Shown here: one piece after another, positions 5,124 to 16,103 of the stretch | How positions within the stretch are numbered: position 1 is the first letter of the stretch | Layout of the letters: the number at the start of each line of letters is the position of its first letter | Assembly (NCBI RefSeq): GCF_006459125.1 | Contig: NZ_CP041070.1 | Coordinates: forward strand, 2,108,001 to 2,172,000 | Source of the DNA: Halarcobacter anaerophilus | GTDB lineage: Bacteria > Campylobacterota > Campylobacteria > Campylobacterales > Arcobacteraceae | Direction: 5' to 3' | DNA: 64,000 bases | The notes under the pieces: generated by a model | Seen by the model: only the letters and a program-made list of their open reading frames with translations | The model's database searches: none | Told to the model about the DNA's origin: nothing | Translations under genes and position numbers: made by a program

Positions 5124-5147
5124 AGTAGTACAAAAAGTAGTACAAAA
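5124..5147 (+). repeat. Exact 12-bp tandem repeat, candidate RHH operator
   Basis: AGTAGTACAAAA occurs twice head to tail (5124-5135 and 5136-5147), ending 24 bp before the TTG start of the ribbon-helix-helix gene. RHH proteins commonly bind short direct or inverted repeats in their own promoters, so this is a candidate autoregulatory site. Related boxes occur before livK. The remaining stretch between the NUDIX gene and this site (4896-5123) is AT-rich, and I see no gene in it. Confidence 0.5.
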
Positions 5148-5171: not shown

Positions 5172-5405
5172 TTGGCTAAGCTTAAAAATAGACGATCTGT
5201 GATACAAAAGGTTATTAGTAAACATTCAAAAAGTAAGAAAAAAGAGATTTCTCAACTTACAATAAAAATCGACAGTAGATTGGATGATGCTTTAGCAATT
5301 TTAAGTAAAGATTTAAGTATCTCAAAAAACAGACTTATAGAAGACATCCTCTTTGAAAGCGGTATTTTAGAAGAGGTAGATGAAAACTATGTGGAGATTG
5401 AATAA
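5172..5405 (+). CDS. Small ribbon-helix-helix DNA-binding protein
   Basis: The product has 77 residues. Its basic N-terminus (KNRRS...KHSKSKKKE) is followed by a strand and two helices, QLTIKIDSRLDDALAILSKD then SISKNRLIEDIL, matching the Arc/CopG/MetJ ribbon-helix-helix fold. It would bind DNA as a dimer. The start is TTG, chosen because TAAGGA lies about 9 nt upstream and no ATG is available. The stop overlaps the next ATG by one base (TAATG), so the two genes are translationally coupled. The pairing of a small RHH protein with a larger unknown protein resembles a toxin-antitoxin or regulator-effector pair, but the second protein is not recognisable as a toxin. Confidence 0.75.
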   Translation: MAKLKNRRSVIQKVISKHSKSKKKEISQLTIKIDSRLDDALAILSKDLSISKNRLIEDILFESGILEEVDENYVEIE

Positions 5406-6064
5406 TGAGTAACTTTCCAAAAAAAGATGAAATTGTTAACGCAGTTTTAAAAGGCATTGAAAATGCAAAAAAAAATTATACCTTTTGGACTTGTGATGAT
5501 TTATATCTTTCATACGCTCCACCTAAATTTCTCTCAATACATGTAGCCCAGGAAATAGGCGAACTAAAAGATGCTCCCGAACTTTTCATAGATGCAACGA
5601 TTTCAGATATTCTTAGATGTTCTTTACCCAACAGATCAGATTTTAGAGAGTTTATGAGAAAAAAATATATTATGGATAGAAGCTTATGTATAACTTTAGA
5701 TGAAAGAAAAGAGCATAAAAGTGATAACGACTCTATTTCAAAAGTAGTTATGTCTTTGAAAAACGGTGTAAGAAACGTCCAACAAGAGTATTTAGACGAT
5801 GTAGAACTTATATGTAAATTAATAGAAAGAGACAATTCAAACGATACAACCTTAGATTACGGAATATTCGCTTTTTATTTAGATATTTCAAGCAGTGCAA
5901 GAAAAAAAGCACAAATCAGACTAGAAGCAATTATAGAATCTTTTGATAAAGTAGTATCGAAATTCAAAAATCTTAAATCAAATTTTAAAGGAGGAGAAAT
6001 ACACAAAATCGACAAAGTTGGAGAGTGGTGTATAGGATGTTATATCATTGAACCATCATTATAA
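5405..6064 (+). CDS. Unknown 219-residue protein coupled to an RHH regulator
   Basis: I do not recognise this protein. It has no signal peptide or membrane segments. The N-terminal half contains aromatic-rich motifs (NYTFWTCDDLYLSYAPPKFL) and a histidine/glutamate patch (SIHVAQEIGEL). The C-terminal part is helical and lysine-rich and ends with WCIGCYII. It overlaps the RHH gene by one base and precedes livK by 60 bp, so it could be a passenger of the liv transcription unit or part of a separate cassette. Possible roles are an effector regulated by the RHH protein, a nucleic-acid-associated protein, or a toxin; none is supported by a known motif. Confidence 0.7.
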   Translation: MSNFPKKDEIVNAVLKGIENAKKNYTFWTCDDLYLSYAPPKFLSIHVAQEIGELKDAPELFIDATISDILRCSLPNRSDFREFMRKKYIMDRSLCITLDERKEHKSDNDSISKVVMSLKNGVRNVQQEYLDDVELICKLIERDNSNDTTLDYGIFAFYLDISSSARKKAQIRLEAIIESFDKVVSKFKNLKSNFKGGEIHKIDKVGEWCIGCYIIEPSL

Positions 6065-6124: not shown

Positions 6125-7243
6125 ATGAAAAAGATTGTTAAAGCATTAGCTTTAAGTGGAATTGTAGCTTGCTCATTATTTGCAAGTGATGTAGTAAAAG
6201 TCGGAGTACAAGCACCAATTACGGGAAAATATGCAAATGAAGGTCAAAGTATCGATAACTTTGTTAAACTATTAGTTGACGAGAAAAACAAAGAGGGTGG
6301 ACTTTTAGGTAAAAAAATCGAAGTTGTTACTTGTGATGATGAAGCAAAAGCTCAAAAAGCCGCTGTTTGTGCTAAAAAACTTGTAAATGCAGGTGTTTTT
6401 GCCGTAATCGGTTCATATACATCAGGAGCAACAGAAGCTGCACAAACAACATATTACAGAAATAAAGTATTACAAACAAGCGACGGAACAAGTGATTCTT
6501 TAATTAAGAAAAAATATTGGACTTTTTTTAGAAACTCATTCCCAAATGAGGCACAGAGTGATTTTACTGCTGACTATTTTGTAAATGTAAAAAAATATCA
6601 AAAAATAGTAGTTTTATCTGATTACTCTTCTTACTCAAACGGCTTGGGAGACGCAACAGAAAACTCAATTAAAAAAATCGGCGGAAATGTAATTTTCAGA
6701 GGAAAAATCAAATCCGGGACTCAAAACTTTACGGCAGTTCTTACTAAAATAAAAGCTATGAATCCCGACGTTATTTACTACTCTGGATATTATACGGACG
6801 GTGGACTACTTAGAGCACAACAACTTCAACTAGGAATAAATGCAGATTTTGTAGGCGGTGATTCAAATGATAATCCCGATTTTTATAAACTTGCAGGTAA
6901 AGCATCGGCAGGAACTATAATTATAAACTTCCCTACTCCTGAAATATTACCTTATAAAGAGGCAAAAAAATATCTATCTGCATATAAAAGAGAGTTTGGG
7001 GCAAACCCTCCTTCAATTTGGCCTGTAACAAATGCCGACGGATTAAGAGCTATTTTTGAAGCTGCTGAGAAAACAAACTCACTTGATACAAAAACAATCT
7101 CTGATTATATTAGAAATACTATGAAAGACTTCCCTGGAATTACAGGTCCCTTTAATATTAGAGAAGACGGAGAAAGAGTCGGAGCTAAATTCGTAGTATA
7201 TAAATTGAACGATAACGGAACAAAAGACGTTGTTGAGCAATAA
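6125..7243 (+). CDS. livK: Branched-chain amino-acid ABC transporter, periplasmic binding protein
   Basis: The 372-residue LivK-type solute-binding protein has a signal peptide (residues 1 to about 20, cleavage near SLFA-S). The mature type I periplasmic-binding fold starts VVKVGVQAPITGKYANEGQS, with the ligand-contact segments IGSYTSGATEAA and QTSDGTSD. It should capture leucine, isoleucine, valine or a related amino acid in the periplasm and deliver it to LivHM. ATG 6125 has AAGGAG 7 nt upstream. It is the first of five co-directional genes with spacings from a 1-bp overlap to 17 bp. Related binding proteins can bind amides or urea, so the exact ligand is inferred from context. Confidence 0.92.
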   Translation: MKKIVKALALSGIVACSLFASDVVKVGVQAPITGKYANEGQSIDNFVKLLVDEKNKEGGLLGKKIEVVTCDDEAKAQKAAVCAKKLVNAGVFAVIGSYTSGATEAAQTTYYRNKVLQTSDGTSDSLIKKKYWTFFRNSFPNEAQSDFTADYFVNVKKYQKIVVLSDYSSYSNGLGDATENSIKKIGGNVIFRGKIKSGTQNFTAVLTKIKAMNPDVIYYSGYYTDGGLLRAQQLQLGINADFVGGDSNDNPDFYKLAGKASAGTIIINFPTPEILPYKEAKKYLSAYKREFGANPPSIWPVTNADGLRAIFEAAEKTNSLDTKTISDYIRNTMKDFPGITGPFNIREDGERVGAKFVVYKLNDNGTKDVVEQ

Positions 7244-7260
7244 TAAAATAAAGAGGTAAT

Positions 7261-8163
7261 ATGGATATTTTTCTTCAACAGTTAATTAACGGTTTAACTA
7301 TAGGAAGTCTATATGCATTGGTTGCTTTAGGTTATACAATGGTCTATGGGGTAATGAAGTTAATCAACTTCGCCCATGGAGACCTTGTCGCCTTCTCAGC
7401 ATATGTAGGGCTTACTATTTTCTCACAACTATTTGGAAGCAGTGCAAGTTCTTTTGTGAATGTAATTATTATTTTCGTATTGACTTCTATTATTGTGGCT
7501 TTTGTGGGTGTTCTTCTTGAGCGTCTGGCATATAGGCCTTTAAGAACGGCACCGAGACTTAGTGCTGTAGTTTCGGCATTAGGAGCATCTTTAGTTATTC
7601 AAAACGGAATTATGCTTATTTGGGGTCCGAATATGCAAATTTTCCCGGCAGATTTACTTCCAAATACAACTTGGAACTTTGGCGGAGTAATTATTACTTT
7701 CACGCAATTATGTATTTTAATTTTATCTGCCGTTTTAATGGCTGCTTTGTTTATTTTTATTAATAAAACAAAAATGGGAACGGCAATCAGAGCAACGGCA
7801 ATAGACCAAGATGCGGCAAAACTAATGGGTATAAACGTAAATAAAGTAATTACCCTGATTTTCATAATAGGTTCAATGCTTGGAGCAATAGGCGGTTTGT
7901 TTATCGGTTTATATTATAGAGCTTTAACTTTTGATATGGGATGGCTTTATGGATTAAATGCCTTTATTGCAGCAATTATAGGAGGTATAGGTTCAATCCC
8001 GGGAGCTATGATAGGCGGTCTTTTATTAGGATTGTTTAATGCTTTAATTGCAGGATATATTTCGACGGAATGGGCGGAAACCTTTACTTTTATTTTACTG
8101 ATTATAATTTTAATTGTAAGACCTACAGGTATCTTAGGTGAAAAAACGGCGGAGAAAGTATAA
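7261..8163 (+). CDS. livH: Branched-chain amino-acid ABC transporter permease LivH
   Basis: The 300-residue inner-membrane permease has about eight hydrophobic helices. Hallmarks of LivH are ALGYTMVYGVMKLINFAHGD near the N-terminus and the EAA-like loop DQDAAKLMGINVNKVITLIF (about 180-200) that contacts the ATPases. It forms the transmembrane channel together with LivM. It lies 17 bp after livK, with an AGAGG site before the ATG, and its stop overlaps the livM start by one base. Confidence 0.93.
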   Translation: MDIFLQQLINGLTIGSLYALVALGYTMVYGVMKLINFAHGDLVAFSAYVGLTIFSQLFGSSASSFVNVIIIFVLTSIIVAFVGVLLERLAYRPLRTAPRLSAVVSALGASLVIQNGIMLIWGPNMQIFPADLLPNTTWNFGGVIITFTQLCILILSAVLMAALFIFINKTKMGTAIRATAIDQDAAKLMGINVNKVITLIFIIGSMLGAIGGLFIGLYYRALTFDMGWLYGLNAFIAAIIGGIGSIPGAMIGGLLLGLFNALIAGYISTEWAETFTFILLIIILIVRPTGILGEKTAEKV

Positions 8164-9116
8164 TGAATAAAACAACAATATTAGCAACTATTTTTATAGT
8201 AGTAATGGCAGTTTTTCCGTTTTTAGTCGATTCTACCTGGCTTACTATCGGTATTACTTTTTTAGTATTTGCAACGGTTGCTTTTTCTCAAGATATAATT
8301 TTAGGAAGAGCAGGAGTATTTAATATGGGACATGCCATTTTCTTTGGTATAGGAGCATATACAACTGCTATTTTAAATGTGCATTTTGGATTTGAGATAA
8401 TAGAAACAATCCCTTTTGCAATCATTTTCCCTATAATCATTGCCATTTTACTTGCAGGTCCTATTATACACCTAAGAGGAGATTATCTTTTAGTTGCAAC
8501 TATCGGATTTAATATTATATTTGAACAAGTCCTAAAAAATGACGTATTTGGATTAACAGGCGGTCCAAACGGAATTTTCGGAATTGATGTGGTAAGAATT
8601 TTCGGATATGAACTATTCTCGGATACGGCAATTTATTATATGGCTTTTATTCTAATGATTTTAACTCTTATAATTATCAGAAATCTTGACAATTCAAGAT
8701 ACGGAAGAGCTTTATACTATATAAACAAAGATGAAATTGCGGCAAAATCTATGGGAATAAATATTCCTTATTATAAACTTTTTGCATTTGCATTAGGTGC
8801 TGCTATTGCAGGAGCCGCAGGAAGTATTTTTGCCGTTCAGTATTCAGCCGTAAGTCCCGAATCATTTAACTTTATGCAGTCTGTTATGTTCTTTGCAATC
8901 GTACTTGTAGGAGGTTCAGCCTCACTTCCGGGAGTTATTATAGGTACTTTCGTAATGTTCGTACTGCCTGAACTTTTTACTGAATTTAAAGAATCAAGAT
9001 ATCTGATTTTCGGTGCTGCTATGGTTTTAACTATGGTTTTAAGACCGAACGGTGTCTGGCCTGCAACTTTTGGAAATATACCGAAGTTTTTAAGACCTAA
9101 CAAAGGAGCTAAATAA
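8163..9116 (+). CDS. livM: Branched-chain amino-acid ABC transporter permease LivM
   Basis: The 317-residue permease has a polytopic profile. It shows the family motif ILGRAGVFNMGHAIFFGIGA (about 44-63) and the cytoplasmic coupling loop NKDEIAAKSMGINIPYYKLF. It pairs with LivH to form the membrane channel. The gene overlaps livH and livG by one base each, which indicates strict translational coupling and a balanced heterodimer. The length is usual for shorter LivM proteins without the long N-terminal extension. Confidence 0.93.
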   Translation: MNKTTILATIFIVVMAVFPFLVDSTWLTIGITFLVFATVAFSQDIILGRAGVFNMGHAIFFGIGAYTTAILNVHFGFEIIETIPFAIIFPIIIAILLAGPIIHLRGDYLLVATIGFNIIFEQVLKNDVFGLTGGPNGIFGIDVVRIFGYELFSDTAIYYMAFILMILTLIIIRNLDNSRYGRALYYINKDEIAAKSMGINIPYYKLFAFALGAAIAGAAGSIFAVQYSAVSPESFNFMQSVMFFAIVLVGGSASLPGVIIGTFVMFVLPELFTEFKESRYLIFGAAMVLTMVLRPNGVWPATFGNIPKFLRPNKGAK

Positions 9117-9895
9117 TGGAATATGTATTAGAAATAGAAAACGTATCTAAATTTTTCCACGGTTTAGTTGCCATTGACGATCTAACAATAAAAGTAAAAC
9201 CAGGGCAAATATATGGAATCATAGGTCCAAACGGTGCGGGAAAAACTACTCTTTTTAACTGTGTAACAGGTATTTATACTCCAGAAGAAGGAACTATAAA
9301 ATACAAAGGTGAAAATATCACGGGAATGGAACCTCATAAAATTGCAGGTCGAGGTATTTTAAGAACTTTTCAAAACATAAGACTTTTTAAAGAGATGAGT
9401 GTTGCAGAAAATATTATGGCAGGATACCACACAAAATCAAAACAAAAATGGTACCACGCAATTATCCATACGCCTTTTTACAAAAAAGATGAAAAAAAAG
9501 CTTGGGAAAAAGTTGAAGAACTAATGAAATTTTTCGGTTTAAGCAAATATGCCATGACTCCTACAGGAGATCTCTCTTACGGGAATCAAAGAAAAGTCGA
9601 AATGGCAAGAGCCCTTGCAGCAGATCCCGAACTTTTAATTTTAGATGAACCGGCTGCAGGTCTTAATGAAAATGAGACAAAAGAGCTTACAGAGATTATT
9701 AGAAGTATAAGCAAAATGGATATCGGTATTATGATGATTGAACATGATATGGAAATGGTAATGAGTCTAACAGATTATATAACTGTAATTAACTTCGGAA
9801 AAGAGATCTCGCAAGGAGTTCCGAGTTTTGTTCAAGATGACCCAAGAGTTATTGAAGCCTATATAGGTTCAGACGATGATGAGGATGAGGAGTAG
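9116..9895 (+). CDS. livG: Branched-chain amino-acid ABC transporter ATPase LivG
   Basis: The 259-residue ABC ATPase has Walker A GPNGAGKTT (about 36-44), a Q loop in RTFQNIRLF, a signature region where LSYGNQRKVEMARAL replaces the usual LSGGQ (as in LivG proteins), Walker B LLILDEPAAGLNE, and the switch His in MIEHDMEMV. Together with LivF it powers transport at the cytoplasmic face. The C-terminus is acidic (SDDDEDEE). It overlaps livM by one base and is 2 bp from livF. Confidence 0.94.
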   Translation: MEYVLEIENVSKFFHGLVAIDDLTIKVKPGQIYGIIGPNGAGKTTLFNCVTGIYTPEEGTIKYKGENITGMEPHKIAGRGILRTFQNIRLFKEMSVAENIMAGYHTKSKQKWYHAIIHTPFYKKDEKKAWEKVEELMKFFGLSKYAMTPTGDLSYGNQRKVEMARALAADPELLILDEPAAGLNENETKELTEIIRSISKMDIGIMMIEHDMEMVMSLTDYITVINFGKEISQGVPSFVQDDPRVIEAYIGSDDDEDEE

Positions 9896-9897
9896 CA

Positions 9898-10620
9898 ATG
9901 GTAAACAATGAAATTCTATTAGAAGTAAAAGATTTAGAAGTTAGTTACGGTGCCATTGCCGCAATAAAAGGTATCTCTTTACATGTAAACAGAGGTGAAG
10001 TAGTAACAATTCTAGGGGCAAACGGTGCGGGAAAAACCACAACTCTTAGAACAATATCAGGTCTTTTAAAAGCAAAAGCAGGTCATATTATTTTTGATAA
10101 AAACGATATTACCAAATCCGAAGCCCATGATATTGTTGCCCTTGGAATGTCTCACTCACCTGAAGGAAGACGGGTTTTCGGAACTTTAAGTGTAGAAGAG
10201 AACCTTATGATGGGAGCATATACTTTAAAAAATCACGATAAGGAGACACTAGAGTGGATATATGATATTTTACCTAGATTAAAAGAGAGAAAAAAACAGC
10301 TTGCAGGTACTCTTTCAGGAGGAGAACAACAAATGTTGGCAATCGGAAGAGCAATCATGTCAAAACCGAAATTATTGATTTTGGACGAGCCATCTTTAGG
10401 TTTGGCACCGATTTTAATTAAAGCAATTTTCAAAGCAGTAAAACAGATTGCACAAAGCGGTGTTACGGTGTTATTAGTTGAACAAAATGCAAAAGCGGCT
10501 TTAAAATTAGCTGATAGAGCATATGTTTTAGAAGTAGGGAAAATTACCCATGAAGGTACAGCGCAAGAGTTATTAAATTCTAAAACAATACAAGAAGCCT
10601 ATTTGGGTAAAAAACATTAA
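9898..10620 (+). CDS. livF: Branched-chain amino-acid ABC transporter ATPase LivF
   Basis: The 240-residue second ATPase of the transporter has Walker A GANGAGKTT, signature LSGGEQQMLAIGRA, Walker B LLILDEPSLGLAP and the H-loop region VLLVEQNAKAAL, where Gln-Asn replaces the switch His as is usual in LivF. It is the last gene of the liv operon. A structured intergenic region of 132 bp separates it from putA, which may mark the end of the operon or a regulated read-through. Confidence 0.94.
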   Translation: MVNNEILLEVKDLEVSYGAIAAIKGISLHVNRGEVVTILGANGAGKTTTLRTISGLLKAKAGHIIFDKNDITKSEAHDIVALGMSHSPEGRRVFGTLSVEENLMMGAYTLKNHDKETLEWIYDILPRLKERKKQLAGTLSGGEQQMLAIGRAIMSKPKLLILDEPSLGLAPILIKAIFKAVKQIAQSGVTVLLVEQNAKAALKLADRAYVLEVGKITHEGTAQELLNSKTIQEAYLGKKH

Positions 10621-10640: not shown

Positions 10641-10713
10641 AAGTAGCAAGAGGGGCGTACTTGGCGGTTGTCCCCTCTAAAGCACATTTAAAAGCGTGCG
10701 CTTTAAGCTACTT
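10641..10713 (+). ncRNA. Candidate structured leader RNA (three-way junction) between livF and putA
   Basis: A closing stem AAGTAGC (10641-10647) with GCTACTT (10707-10713) encloses a hairpin AGAGGGG (10649-10655)/CCCCTCT (10672-10678) with a 16-nt loop, and a third arm. In the third arm GCTTT (10700-10704) can pair either with AAAGC at 10679-10683 or with AAAGC at 10691-10695, two mutually exclusive hairpins. It ends 39 nt before the putA ATG. It could be a cis-regulatory leader of putA, such as an amino-acid-responsive switch, or an RNA processing element after livF. No known riboswitch consensus was recognised. Confidence 0.45.
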
Positions 10714-10752
10714 AAACTTTTATTAAACTTTGATAAATTTTAAGGATCGCAA

Positions 10753-13700
10753 ATGAAAAATGAACAAGAAATGATTCAATCGGCTATAAAATTAGCAGAA
10801 AAATGGCAAAACAGAGCAACACAGCTTGTAAGTGACTTTGACAAAGAGTTTTACGTAAAAATGAACAAAATGTTGGAACATCCCGAAGATAAAGCTTTAT
10901 TAATTGAGCTTATGGATCAATGTTTCAGATGTAAATCAAACAAAAGAGTAGCTGACCAAATCTGCTTTTTATTAGAAAAGCACGGTATGGCACATTTTTT
11001 TACTACAAAAGATAAAACTCTATTATGGTTGTTTCAAAACTTAGGAAAATATCTTCCTGATATCTCTGTTCCGCTGTTTGTAAAACAAATTAGAGAAGAT
11101 ACTAAAACAGTTGTATTAAAAGGAGAAAAAGAGCCTTTTAATAAACATTTAGAGATGAGAAAAAAAGAGGGAACCAGAGTAAATATCAACCTAATAGGAG
11201 AGGTTGTATTAGGTGAAGAAGAGGCACAAGAGAGAATTGAAAAATATTTAGAAGCTTTAAAAAATCCTAATATAGACTATATCTCAATTAAAATTTCTAC
11301 AATCTATTCTCAAATCAATGCTTTGGATATTGAGCATACAGTTGAAGTTTTAGTAGAAAAACTAAGCAAACTCTATGCACAAGCAAAAAAATATCCATAT
11401 ATAGCTCCTGACGGAACAAAATCAAATAAATTTATAAATCTTGATATGGAAGAGTATAGAGATTTAGCAATTACTGTTGAAGTATTCAAAAGAACTTTAG
11501 AAAAAGAGGAGTTTAAAGACTTCTATGCAGGAATAGTTCTTCAAGCATATCTTCCGGATTCTCATCTTTGGCAAAAACACCTTAGAGACTGGGCAAAACA
11601 AAGAGTTGAAAACGGCGGAAGCCCTATTAAATTCAGACTTGTAAAAGGTGCAAATATGGAGATGGAAGAGACAGAATCATCTCAAAGACATTGGGAAATG
11701 GTAACATATACAGACAAAAGTGATACGGACTCAAACTATAAAAGAATGGCAAGATATGCCCTACAACCCGAAAACGCCCAATATATGAATATAGGAACAG
11801 CTTCACACAATCTTTTTGAACAAGCTTTTGCAGTAACAATGGCTGAAAACTTTAAAACAGAGCAATACCATACCGTAGAGATGCTTGAAGGTATGAGTGA
11901 AGCTGCAAGATTAGCAGTAAAAGAGATTTCAAAAAATGTAATTTTATATGCACCTACTGCGGCAATGGAACAGTTTACAAATGCTATTGCCTATCTTGTT
12001 AGAAGACTTGATGAAAATACGGGAGATGATAACTTTATTAGATATTCATTCGGACTTAAAGTAGGAAGCGCAGATTGGAATATGCAAAAAGAGCTTTTCC
12101 TAAAATCATTTGAAAATGAAAAAACTTCATTTGTAGGTTCAAAAAGAAAACAAAACAGACTTACTGAAAAATGGGAAGATTATAATAAAAGTTCATACGA
12201 TACAAAAGAGTATGCTTCAGAAGCAGATACCGATTTTGTACTTCCTGCTAACCAAGAGTGGGCAAGAGATATCGTAAAAAAATGGAAATTTTCAAAAGAT
12301 ACCCAACATGAAGTTAAACCTATAATTGTTGCAGGAGAAGAGATTAGAGATAGAATTATTGTTGAAGCTATTGATAAATCTCAACTAGAAGAAAAAGTTT
12401 TAGCAGGTAAATTTGCAACTGCAACTGCAACTGACCTTAAAAAAGCAGTTGATACGGCAAAAGCAGATGTGGACGGATGGAGAAGTTTAAGCCATGAACA
12501 AAGACATGCAGCTTTAAAACAAGTTGCTATAAAGGTAAGAGAAAGAAGAGCTGAACTACTTGGAGTTGCAGCGGCAGAAGTGGGTAAAGTGTTCACTGAA
12601 ACAGATGTTGAAGTTAGTGAAGCAATCGACTTTTTAGAATTTTATCCATACTCAACCCACTATTTTGAAAAATACGAAAACTTGGAATTTGCAGGAAAAG
12701 GTGTAGGTGTTGTTATTCCTCCTTGGAACTTCCCTGTTGCCATTCCTTTAGGCGGTATTGCGGCAACTTTAGCTTCTGGAAATACGGCAATAATCAAACC
12801 TGCATCGGCAGCTGCACTTACGGCTTATGAAATGTGCAAATGCTTCTGGGATGCCGGTATTTCTAAAAATATATTGCAATTCGTACCTTGTCCGGGAAGT
12901 TTGGCAGGAGAACATTTGATCGGAAACAAAGATGTTGATTTTGTTATTCTAACAGGTGGAGAAGATACTGCTGCAACTATGTTAAAAACAAGAGCAGATT
13001 TATACCTAACAGCTGAAACAGGCGGTAAAGATGCAACAATCGTTACTAGTATGGCAGATAGAGAACAAGCTATTAAAAATGTTTGCCACAGTGCTTTTTC
13101 AAACTCAGGTCAAAAATGTTCGGCAACTTCACTTTTAGTTTTGGAAGAAGAAGTTTACAATGACGAAGCCTTTAAAAAAGCCTTAGCTGATGCGGCAAGA
13201 TCTATGAGTGTAGGTTCTGTTTGGAACTTAAACAACAGAATAGGAACATTGGCAAATCCTGTATCAGGAAAACTGAAAAAAGCAATTGATACATTAGAAG
13301 ACGGTGAAGAGTGGCTTGTATCTCCTGAATTTGCACATAATAATGAGTATATGTTAAAACCTGCTATAAAATGGGGTGTAAAAGAGGGAAGCTTTATGCA
13401 TATGAATGAGCTTTTCGGACCCGTACTAGCTGTAATAAAAGCAAAAAATTTAAAACATGCGGTTGATATTGTAAATGCTACAGGATATGGACTTACTTCT
13501 GGTATTGAATCTTTAGATGAAAGAGAAGTTGAATACTGGAAAAATAATACAAAAGCAGGTAACCTTTATATTAACAGAGGAACCACGGGTGCTATTGTTA
13601 CAAGACAACCTTTCGGCGGTATGGGAAAATCTGCAATCGGTGCAGGAAGAAAAGTCGGTATTTTTAATTATGTAACTCAATTTATGGATTTTAAAGAGAT

Positions 13701-14322
13701 CTCTAAACCAAAAATTTCGACTAGATATAATAATGATTTAACAAGATTTATCGAAAAAGCAAAACAATCAAATAAAAACAAAGAAGATTTTGAAAAATTA
13801 GAGATTGCACTTCAATCATATCTTGATAATTTTACACATGAATTCTCTTTAGAAAAAGATTACTGCAAAGTAAGAGGTGAAGACAATTTATTTAAATATC
13901 TTCCTATTAAAAACGTTCTTATCAGAGTATCTAAAGATGATTCTATTTTTGAAGCAGTTTCAAGAATACTTGCAGCAAGAGTTGCAAAAACGCACTTTAG
14001 AGTATCTATTGATAACAATGAAGAGGTATTTAACTTCCTTGAAGAATCAAAGGCCCAATTATTTACTGCAAGAGATACTATGGCAAAAGAAGATGATTCC
14101 CAATTCTTACAGGCACTTGCTAATTATGAAAGAGTTATCTACTCGGATATTGCAAAAGTTCCGTCAAGCGTATTTGAAAAAGCGGCACAGTCTCTTACTT
14201 TTATTGTAAGAGCTAAACCTATGATGGAAGGAAGACTTGAACTTCTTAACTACTTTATAGAACAATCAATCTCTCACTCTTTCCACAGATATGGAAATAT
14301 CGGTGCAAGAGGAATTAAATAA
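10753..14322 (+). CDS. putA: Bifunctional proline dehydrogenase / glutamate-semialdehyde dehydrogenase
   Basis: The 1189-residue PutA has a proline dehydrogenase barrel in the first about 480 residues (FAD/substrate region including FRLVKGANMEMEE and YMNIGTASHN). An aldehyde dehydrogenase domain follows (about 540-1010) with PPWNFPVAIP, the general-base Glu in AETGGKD and the catalytic Cys in FSNSGQKCSATS. A C-terminal extension of about 170 residues comes after that. It oxidises proline to P5C, passing electrons to quinone, and then to glutamate with NAD. There is no N-terminal RHH DNA-binding domain, unlike E. coli PutA, so it should not repress its own gene. ATG 10753 follows AAGGA by 6 nt. 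Confidence 0.96.
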   Translation: MKNEQEMIQSAIKLAEKWQNRATQLVSDFDKEFYVKMNKMLEHPEDKALLIELMDQCFRCKSNKRVADQICFLLEKHGMAHFFTTKDKTLLWLFQNLGKYLPDISVPLFVKQIREDTKTVVLKGEKEPFNKHLEMRKKEGTRVNINLIGEVVLGEEEAQERIEKYLEALKNPNIDYISIKISTIYSQINALDIEHTVEVLVEKLSKLYAQAKKYPYIAPDGTKSNKFINLDMEEYRDLAITVEVFKRTLEKEEFKDFYAGIVLQAYLPDSHLWQKHLRDWAKQRVENGGSPIKFRLVKGANMEMEETESSQRHWEMVTYTDKSDTDSNYKRMARYALQPENAQYMNIGTASHNLFEQAFAVTMAENFKTEQYHTVEMLEGMSEAARLAVKEISKNVILYAPTAAMEQFTNAIAYLVRRLDENTGDDNFIRYSFGLKVGSADWNMQKELFLKSFENEKTSFVGSKRKQNRLTEKWEDYNKSSYDTKEYASEADTDFVLPANQEWARDIVKKWKFSKDTQHEVKPIIVAGEEIRDRIIVEAIDKSQLEEKVLAGKFATATATDLKKAVDTAKADVDGWRSLSHEQRHAALKQVAIKVRERRAELLGVAAAEVGKVFTETDVEVSEAIDFLEFYPYSTHYFEKYENLEFAGKGVGVVIPPWNFPVAIPLGGIAATLASGNTAIIKPASAAALTAYEMCKCFWDAGISKNILQFVPCPGSLAGEHLIGNKDVDFVILTGGEDTAATMLKTRADLYLTAETGGKDATIVTSMADREQAIKNVCHSAFSNSGQKCSATSLLVLEEEVYNDEAFKKALADAARSMSVGSVWNLNNRIGTLANPVSGKLKKAIDTLEDGEEWLVSPEFAHNNEYMLKPAIKWGVKEGSFMHMNELFGPVLAVIKAKNLKHAVDIVNATGYGLTSGIESLDEREVEYWKNNTKAGNLYINRGTTGAIVTRQPFGGMGKSAIGAGRKVGIFNYVTQFMDFKEISKPKISTRYNNDLTRFIEKAKQSNKNKEDFEKLEIALQSYLDNFTHEFSLEKDYCKVRGEDNLFKYLPIKNVLIRVSKDDSIFEAVSRILAARVAKTHFRVSIDNNEEVFNFLEESKAQLFTARDTMAKEDDSQFLQALANYERVIYSDIAKVPSSVFEKAAQSLTFIVRAKPMMEGRLELLNYFIEQSISHSFHRYGNIGARGIK

Positions 14323-14387: not shown

Positions 14388-16103
14388 ATGGAAATATGGA
14401 TTATAATATTCATATGTTTCTTCATCTTTATATTTGCTTGGTATATACATGATAAATATGTACAAAGAAAACATCAAATTTTAGTAAACTACCCTATTAT
14501 AGGAAGATTACGATTTGTTTTTCAAGAGTTTAGAGAGCCCTTTAGACAATATTTCGGTGATGAAAAGTTTTATGAATCAATGGATAAATTAGAGTGGGTT
14601 TACAGTGCCGCAAGAGATAAAGTTAATTTCTCATCTTTTTCCCCCTCTCAACCTCTGCCAAAACCTAAATTTATGTTAAGACATACGAATATTGTTTTAA
14701 ACGATAATGAAGTAGAAAATGATTTTAGAGTAACTTTCGGAGAAAAAAGGGAAAAACCTTTTATCACTTCATCTATAATTGCAAGAGCCCCTATGAGTGA
14801 CGGTTCTATTTCTCCTGAGGGAACAAGAGCTTTTGTTCAGGGTTCAAAACTGGGCAGTTTTCCTATTAACACGGGAGAAGGCGGTCTAACCTCAAACTTT
14901 TTTGTAACACACAATAACTATAACGCCAAATATATTACAGAAATAAAAGGGAATAAAAAACAATCTAAAATATTTAAAATTTCAAAAATACTTTTTAATT
15001 TACCTGTTGCAGTAGATATCTACAGAAAAATCATTTTTAAAAATGATCCTCTAGCTGATACTTATGTTTTCAACAAAGAAAAAGAGTGCTTTTTCAGACC
15101 TAATTGGGATGCGCCCGTGGACTCTTTTCCAAAAGAAGTTCCCGAAGATATGCCTGATATTATTTTACAAAGAAGTTCAGGACTTTACGGAGTTAGAACA
15201 ATAAACGGAGAATTTGACAAACAAAGATATAAAAAGCAGATGAGTTTTTGTCGTATGACAGAGATAAAAATAGCCCAAGGAGCAAAACAAACGGGAGGAA
15301 AACTGATTGCAAATAAAGTAACCCCTGCTATTGCTTATTATAGAAATATTCCTGCTTATAAAGATGCTTTCTCTCCAAACAGATTTCCTTATGCAAACAG
15401 TGTTGAAGAGCTTTTTGATTTTATAGGAGAACTTCAAAAAATATCACAAAAACCAGTAGGAATAAAAATAGTAATTTCAGATTATGAAAATATTGTTCCC
15501 CTTGCAAAAGAGATAAAAAGAAGAGTCGAATTAAATCTTCCTTATCCTGATTATATCTCAATTGACGGAGGAAGAGGAGGAAGTGCAACGGCTCCACTTG
15601 ATATGATGGAAAGAATCGGTATGGATATAAGAGATGCCCTTTATCTTGTTGACAAAGTCTTAAAAGATTACGAGATAAGAGATAAAATAAAGATCTCGGC
15701 AAGCGGAAAGATCTTGACTCCTGATGATGTTATTATAATACTTTGTTTAGGTGCCGATTTCGTTCAAATAGCAAGAGGATTTATGATGAGTGCCGGCTGC
15801 ATAAGAGCAAGATATTGTTCAGGTGCTACAAAACATCAATGTCCAGTAGGTCTTGCCACGCAAAATAAAAAAAAGAGAAAACACTATTTTGTAAACAAAC
15901 ACTCAGAATATATAAAAAATTATCATAATCAGATATTAAAAAATATGAAAAGTTTACTTGCAGTAATGGGAGTAAAAAATATAAAAGAATTAGATAAAAA
16001 CAAACTTATCTTTTTGGATAAAGATTCAAAAATACATGATGATATGGATGCTTTGTTCGAAAGAAGAATATTTTTAAAAAAGGATAATAAAAAAAATGTT
16101 TAG
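14388..16103 (+). CDS. Membrane-anchored FMN-binding glutamate-synthase-like protein
   Basis: The 571-residue protein has an N-terminal membrane helix (about residues 3-19). A GltB-type FMN-binding synthase domain follows, with the phosphate/FMN segment [19 protein letters not shown] and the iron-sulfur cysteines of GAGAT-like type in [19 protein letters not shown]. The glutaminase domain of true glutamate synthase is missing, so ammonia or another electron acceptor may be used; the physiological reaction of these stand-alone proteins is not settled. It follows putA, which yields glutamate, suggesting a link to glutamate metabolism. It overlaps the chemoreceptor gene by 8 bp. Confidence 0.85.

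Follow-up and report, generated by a model that had tools for sequence, protein, structure and literature searches.

The mRNA leader of putA in Halarcobacter anaerophilus is very likely a conserved cis-regulatory RNA, which folds as a small three-way junction. Most likely it adjusts the amount of PutA, and proline or another related amino acid may be the signal that it senses. The reading we favor, at a probability of roughly 0.45, is that of a cis-acting leader of the liv-putA operon, restricted to one bacterial family, which would act in a riboswitch-like manner on a putative pathway metabolite and turn putA on when its substrate is present.

Fold, covariation and distribution of the leader

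In the window, which is the whole 64,000-nucleotide stretch of DNA that was analyzed, the leader lies between livF (end 10620) and putA, and 39 nt separate its end at 10713 from the putA ATG at 10753 (Table 1). It is 73 nt long, compared with ~75 nt across the family. The minimum free energy fold is the three-way junction, at −26.8 kcal/mol (z = −2.48), and one of 200 shuffled sequences folded as well. The first-pass annotation had proposed a three-way-junction leader at this site; the closing stem, the GC-rich hairpin, the AAAGC and GCTTT pieces and the gap to putA are all where it placed them, and the comparative data take the structured leader far beyond chance.

Table 1. Features of the putA leader RNA and its operon, in window coordinates
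Feature	Position	Strand	Basis or remark
Whole three-way-junction leader RNA	10641..10713	+	fold, 28 intact copies, covariation
P1 5′ strand, AAGUAGC	10641..10647	+	partner 10707-10713, 7 bp
P1 3′ strand, GCUACUU	10707..10713	+	terminal CUU can alternatively pair with AAG of the putA Shine-Dalgarno
P2 hairpin, AGAGGGG / CCCCUCU	10649..10678	+	strands 10649-10655 / 10672-10678, 7 bp, GC-rich
P2 loop, ACUUGGCGGU	10659..10668	+	most conserved sequence of the element; possible upstream start codon, UUG-GCG-GU
P3 hairpin, AAAGC / GCUUU, A.C mismatch, CA / UG	10679..10704	+	outer strands 10679-10683 / 10700-10704
putA Shine-Dalgarno, AAGGA	10742..10746	+	sequence; position conserved in relatives
Proposed alternative helix, CUUAAA (10711-10716) / UUUAAG (10739-10744)	10711..10744	+	inferred; conserved letters
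Possible upstream ORF, UUG start in P2 loop, peptide LAVVPSKAHLKACALSYLNFY	10661..10726	+	rival reading
putA, bifunctional proline dehydrogenase / glutamate semialdehyde dehydrogenase	10753..14322	+	two domains found
livK-H-M-G-F, amino-acid ABC importer	6125..10620	+	upstream, same direction; families tested for livK and livF
Small ribbon-helix-helix-like protein	5172-5404		sequence pattern read by eye
Uncharacterized 219-aa protein	5405-6064		before livK; no Pfam match above cut-off

Covariation was scored on a covariance-model alignment instead of the raw MAFFT alignment; raw MAFFT followed by RNAalifold gave a wrong P2 because the 3′ strand of P2 was misaligned in several rows. In the alignment of 28 intact sequences, whose fitting to the covariance model favors the structure, standard pairing was found in 94.5% of pair cells (94.4% for the P1 helix), and 12 of 22 pairs showed changes on both sides, a count equaled by 0 of 500 shuffles. 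The covariation score was 0.259, compared with 0.084 for shuffles; sliding the structure by one column collapsed the signal, and no slid version scored above 0.072. Both-side changes occurred in five of the seven P2 pairs, and all four modeled outer pairs of P3 covary. On the PutA protein tree, parsimony counted 32 independent double changes that preserve pairing across P1, P2 and P3. The unpaired P2 loop ACUUGGCGGU hardly varies, making it a possible binding pocket of the kind expected of a riboswitch, and the P3 loop is partly conserved (-AAGC[GC]UG). Compensatory changes and a fixed site before functionally linked genes, both expected of a conserved cis-regulatory leader, are present. The first-pass annotation had made its proposal depend on covariation in relatives and on a conserved sequence element, and both are present. 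A likeness of CUUGG to the anticodon loop of tRNA-Pro was also considered and was dropped because the third anticodon letter changes in L015 and L028.

The first-pass annotation had further read two competing hairpins, in which GCUUU pairs with either of two AAAGC copies, as a switch. The second copy (10691-10695, inside the P3 loop) can form this pairing in the window sequence, but the pairing is not conserved: the alternative hairpin reaches 5 bp in just 2 of 30 sequences (L002 and L005), 4 bp in L003 and L004, and 3 bp or fewer in the others. The genuine strands of P3 change in concert among relatives, as GAGC/GCUC, GAC/GUC and ACAG/CUGU, which leaves the second AAAGC unable to pair with the 3′ strand of P3 in most of them.

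All 28 intact leaders, the window copy included, precede putA, and their genomes are of the Arcobacteraceae type. Searching 104 family genomes at the nucleotide level placed the leader before putA in several genera. When a covariance model built from eight sequences (R1) was run against 399 genomes of the order, convincing matches were confined to this one family, every one ahead of putA, and a second model built from the 28 intact copies (R2) agreed with this distribution when run on the 104 family genomes and 397 genomes of the phylum. A strict sequence pattern matched eight loci in 84,980 species genomes, belonging to Poseidonibacter, Malaciobacter, Arcobacter sp. and, for the remainder, uncultured Campylobacterales or Campylobacteraceae; the same pattern had no match in viral contigs. 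Matches of R1 away from putA (L049-L059) had E > 0.02 and were attributed to chance; the conserved loop is absent from them except in L057, where it falls within an apparent CRISPR array and was likewise judged a chance match. Weak R2 matches in G023, G036, G058 and G077 also appear to be chance.

Three side observations concern related sequences. In G005 (L094:1860-1930), a hairpin with a ACUUGGCGGUU loop precedes a replication-like gene near an integrase-like gene and is possibly a chance occurrence. In G091 (L140:949-1013 = G091:C1:482948-483012), the loop sequence AACUUGGCGGUUG occurs ahead of a different gene, in a leader that lies ~9 kb upstream of the one before putA, as either a degenerate third copy or a chance match. 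A conserved short ORF (MRHKRR..SKVQDLHKGQ) stands directly before putA or its leader at L074, L041, L044 and L048 (G033, G034, G032 and G059), and in G098 and G051.

The gene putA is present in 48 of the 104 family genomes: the leader is intact in 28, is without its P2 loop in five (G032, G033, G034, G059 and G064) and is absent from the others. As a rival reading, the leader may be an element between cistrons that acts on mRNA stability or processing and so fixes the liv:putA ratio, sensing nothing. Such an element would account for the site between livF and putA, for the lack of any conserved promoter seen ahead of the leader, and for the mostly leaderless state of putA genes that stand away from livF (e.g. 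G054, G055, G061-G063, G086 and G087), an exception being G098 (L015), which has the leader and no close livF match just upstream. We nonetheless find it quite improbable: the invariant loop and the second copy before another pathway operon, described below, exceed the needs of a generic stabilizing hairpin, and in G088 and G089 putA follows livF with an ordinary terminator-like hairpin in place of the leader.

Second copies, candidate ligands and a protein-binding alternative

Searches with R2 found additional leader copies in G090 and G094 (27.2 and 25.8 bits), each before a (ctlX-)ocd-arginase operon. Both preserve the loop ACUUGGCGGU on a P2 that has been replaced by a different 11-bp stem, which in G090 is AAGGGAAAGGA...UCCUUUCCCUU as against GAGGGG..CCCCUC before putA. 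Both are also followed by a AAUUAAUUU-type platform with a Shine-Dalgarno. In G094 the operon comprises ctlX, the ornithine cyclodeaminase and arginase genes, and a gene for a membrane protein that carries a Gate (nucleoside recognition) domain; its counterpart in G090 is without ctlX. In each case the first real gene lies some distance past the platform and is preceded by a short ORF, which is not conserved between the two genomes. No leader stands at the remaining ocd loci that were inspected in the family. CtlX-Ocd is a proposed route from citrulline through ornithine to proline (PMC9007349). The two targets, putA and the (ctlX-)ocd-arginase operon, which leads from citrulline, ornithine and arginine to proline, thus meet at proline, which reinforces the proline-pathway context from which the first-pass annotation had guessed at control by proline, glutamate or a related ligand.

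Judged from sequence, a small-molecule riboswitch is the leading reading, plausible but unproven, with amino acids of the proline pathway as candidate ligands. A stronger claim would make the leader the first known riboswitch to sense proline, or else ornithine or citrulline, which coordinates the route from arginine and citrulline through ornithine and proline to glutamate in Arcobacteraceae; we regard this version as rather doubtful. Proline inducing ocd, itself a proline-making gene, is not an obvious logic. Several findings also weigh against the riboswitch-like reading: the RNA is found in a narrow family and nearly always before one gene, the P2 loop also resembles an upstream start site, and the five genomes without the P2 loop still hold P1, P3 and the Shine-Dalgarno platform.

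A protein-bound leader fits the narrow, single-gene distribution equally well. Leaders that bind proteins are typically confined to few lineages and have one hairpin loop that does not vary, as here. A put-linked protein, such as the ~219-aa product of 5405-6064, might control putA translation by binding either the junction or the loop ACUUGGCGG. This protein occurs in 43 of the 104 family genomes, nearly always together with putA (48 of 104) and beside put or ocd genes. In G090 and G094 its gene stands immediately before the second leader copy, in G094 as a two-gene module with the ribbon-helix-helix-like gene, and the protein could be a candidate binder of the leader RNA. However, it adjoins putA in leaderless genomes too (G054, G055, G061-G063, G086 and G087). 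Its AF2 model is confident (pLDDT 93.3), and a fold search with this model against solved structures found no clear relative; RNA binding is therefore not indicated, and we consider control by such a protein unlikely.

Possible control of putA translation

Under the riboswitch-like reading, the junction and loops would bind a small metabolite, with proline as the first candidate and ornithine, arginine or citrulline next. Binding would steady P1, the steadied helix would keep the end of its 3′ strand off the Shine-Dalgarno, and putA translation would be on in the presence of its substrate. The livF-putA interval of the window contains no terminator-like site (a GC-rich hairpin with a U run behind it), and translational control is therefore the simpler option. 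The proposed alternative helix covers part of the Shine-Dalgarno and cannot form together with the outermost P1 pairs. P1 against this helix would be a better-placed switch than the AAAGC/GCUUU hairpin.

Across the 28 leaders, the mean unpaired probability of the Shine-Dalgarno was 0.71 with the junction forced and 0.39 with P1 blocked; for the window's own leader the two values hardly differ (0.35 and 0.39, respectively), and there the energy model lends the helix no support. The anti-Shine-Dalgarno helix showed no covariation, being paired in 87.9% of cases, with 348 of 500 shuffles at least as high. When the AU-rich spacer was shuffled, sequestration was 0.46 compared with 0.41 observed, giving no excess over controls. 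In view of the lack of both covariation and excess over shuffled spacers, we consider the platform plausible and only putative.

The resemblance of the P2 loop to a start site raises the alternative that translation of a short, proline-containing peptide, and not a ligand, alters the leader fold. In this layout GAGGG serves as the Shine-Dalgarno, UUG as the start and Ala-Val follows, the loop reading UUG-GCG-GUU. In all 30 elements the loop contains a UUG or CUG that follows a run of purines, with L021 failing to match the Shine-Dalgarno consensus used, and both second copies read AAGGAG-UUAC-UUG. Some of the changes in the loop are synonymous (GCG to GCC or GCA, GUU to GUA or GUG), and 28 of 30 elements have a proline codon as their fourth or fifth. 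That codon is almost forced, however, because the C run must pair with GAGGG. The frame is not kept past codon 3, the distance from UUG to CCCUC being 11, 12 or 13 nt; the ORF ranges from 6 to 28 codons with unaligned stops and no conserved peptide. Non-synonymous loop changes exist as well (CCG-GAA/GAG, GCA), one element has CUG, and attenuation of the starvation type would regulate a catabolic gene in the wrong direction. We regard the upstream ORF, too, as an unlikely basis for regulation, but as a serious rival.

Operon context and comparison with known systems

In E. coli and Salmonella, a DNA-binding PutA autoregulates proline degradation. By contrast, a domain search of PutA found the proline dehydrogenase and aldehyde dehydrogenase domains only, with no N-terminal DNA-binding domain, and a ribbon-helix-helix-like protein and an inverted repeat stand at the start of the operon. 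The repeat, AGTAGTACAAAAAGTAGTACA at 5124-5144, lies ahead of the gene for this protein, in which Pfam found no family above cut-off. The arrangement points to regulation of transcription where the operon begins, together with RNA-level control before putA. Where putA does not follow livF and has no leader, a GTAGTAC-type repeat lies ahead of putA; a repeat similar to AGTAGTACAAAAAGTAGTACA precedes putA in genomes where the gene has moved from livF. Downstream of putA is a protein with a glutamate-synthase domain (14388-16103), in the same order in G090 and G094, which may be part of the proline to glutamate route.

The putA leader RNA is undescribed in the sources searched, and Rfam holds no family that covers it. 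No Rfam 15 family reached the gathering threshold over the leader, and a permissive search (E up to 10) returned one chance snoRNA hit at the site (E = 8.6), in agreement with the earlier view that no known class fits. The phrase 'proline riboswitch' was not found in the literature searched. In a survey of intergenic regions by Stav et al. (2019), 38 regions from Arcobacter sp. L were examined, and most of those found in Arcobacter only were left unnamed (PMC6429828). The orphan riboswitch candidates it describes are likewise rare, lineage-restricted structured leaders. Its main text names neither putA nor proline; an earlier, unnamed sighting of the putA leader region in its supplement is possible. 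Later surveys of 26 and 50 genomes do not mention putA (PMC8632094, PMC11109978).

Two known systems invite comparison. The glycine riboswitch (gcvT motif) is an ON switch for amino-acid degradation genes (PMC7266159), and the putA leader is likewise an mRNA leader before an amino-acid catabolic gene, for which we propose activation by substrate. It differs in having no covariance-model match; it consists of just one small three-way junction, occurs in one family and has a putative ligand. The Salmonella mgtCBR leader is regulated through a leader peptide with proline codons (PMC3641672). The putA leader also has a possible short ORF with a proline codon, but it lacks a conserved peptide or a run of proline codons, and the gene it controls is catabolic.

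Few riboswitches have been described in Campylobacterota; for C. jejuni, one study reports the thiamine-pyrophosphate riboswitch alone (PMC3847290). The putA leader offers a directly testable case of RNA amino-acid sensing in this phylum, and its two target operons, which have one metabolite in common, give a short list of ligands.
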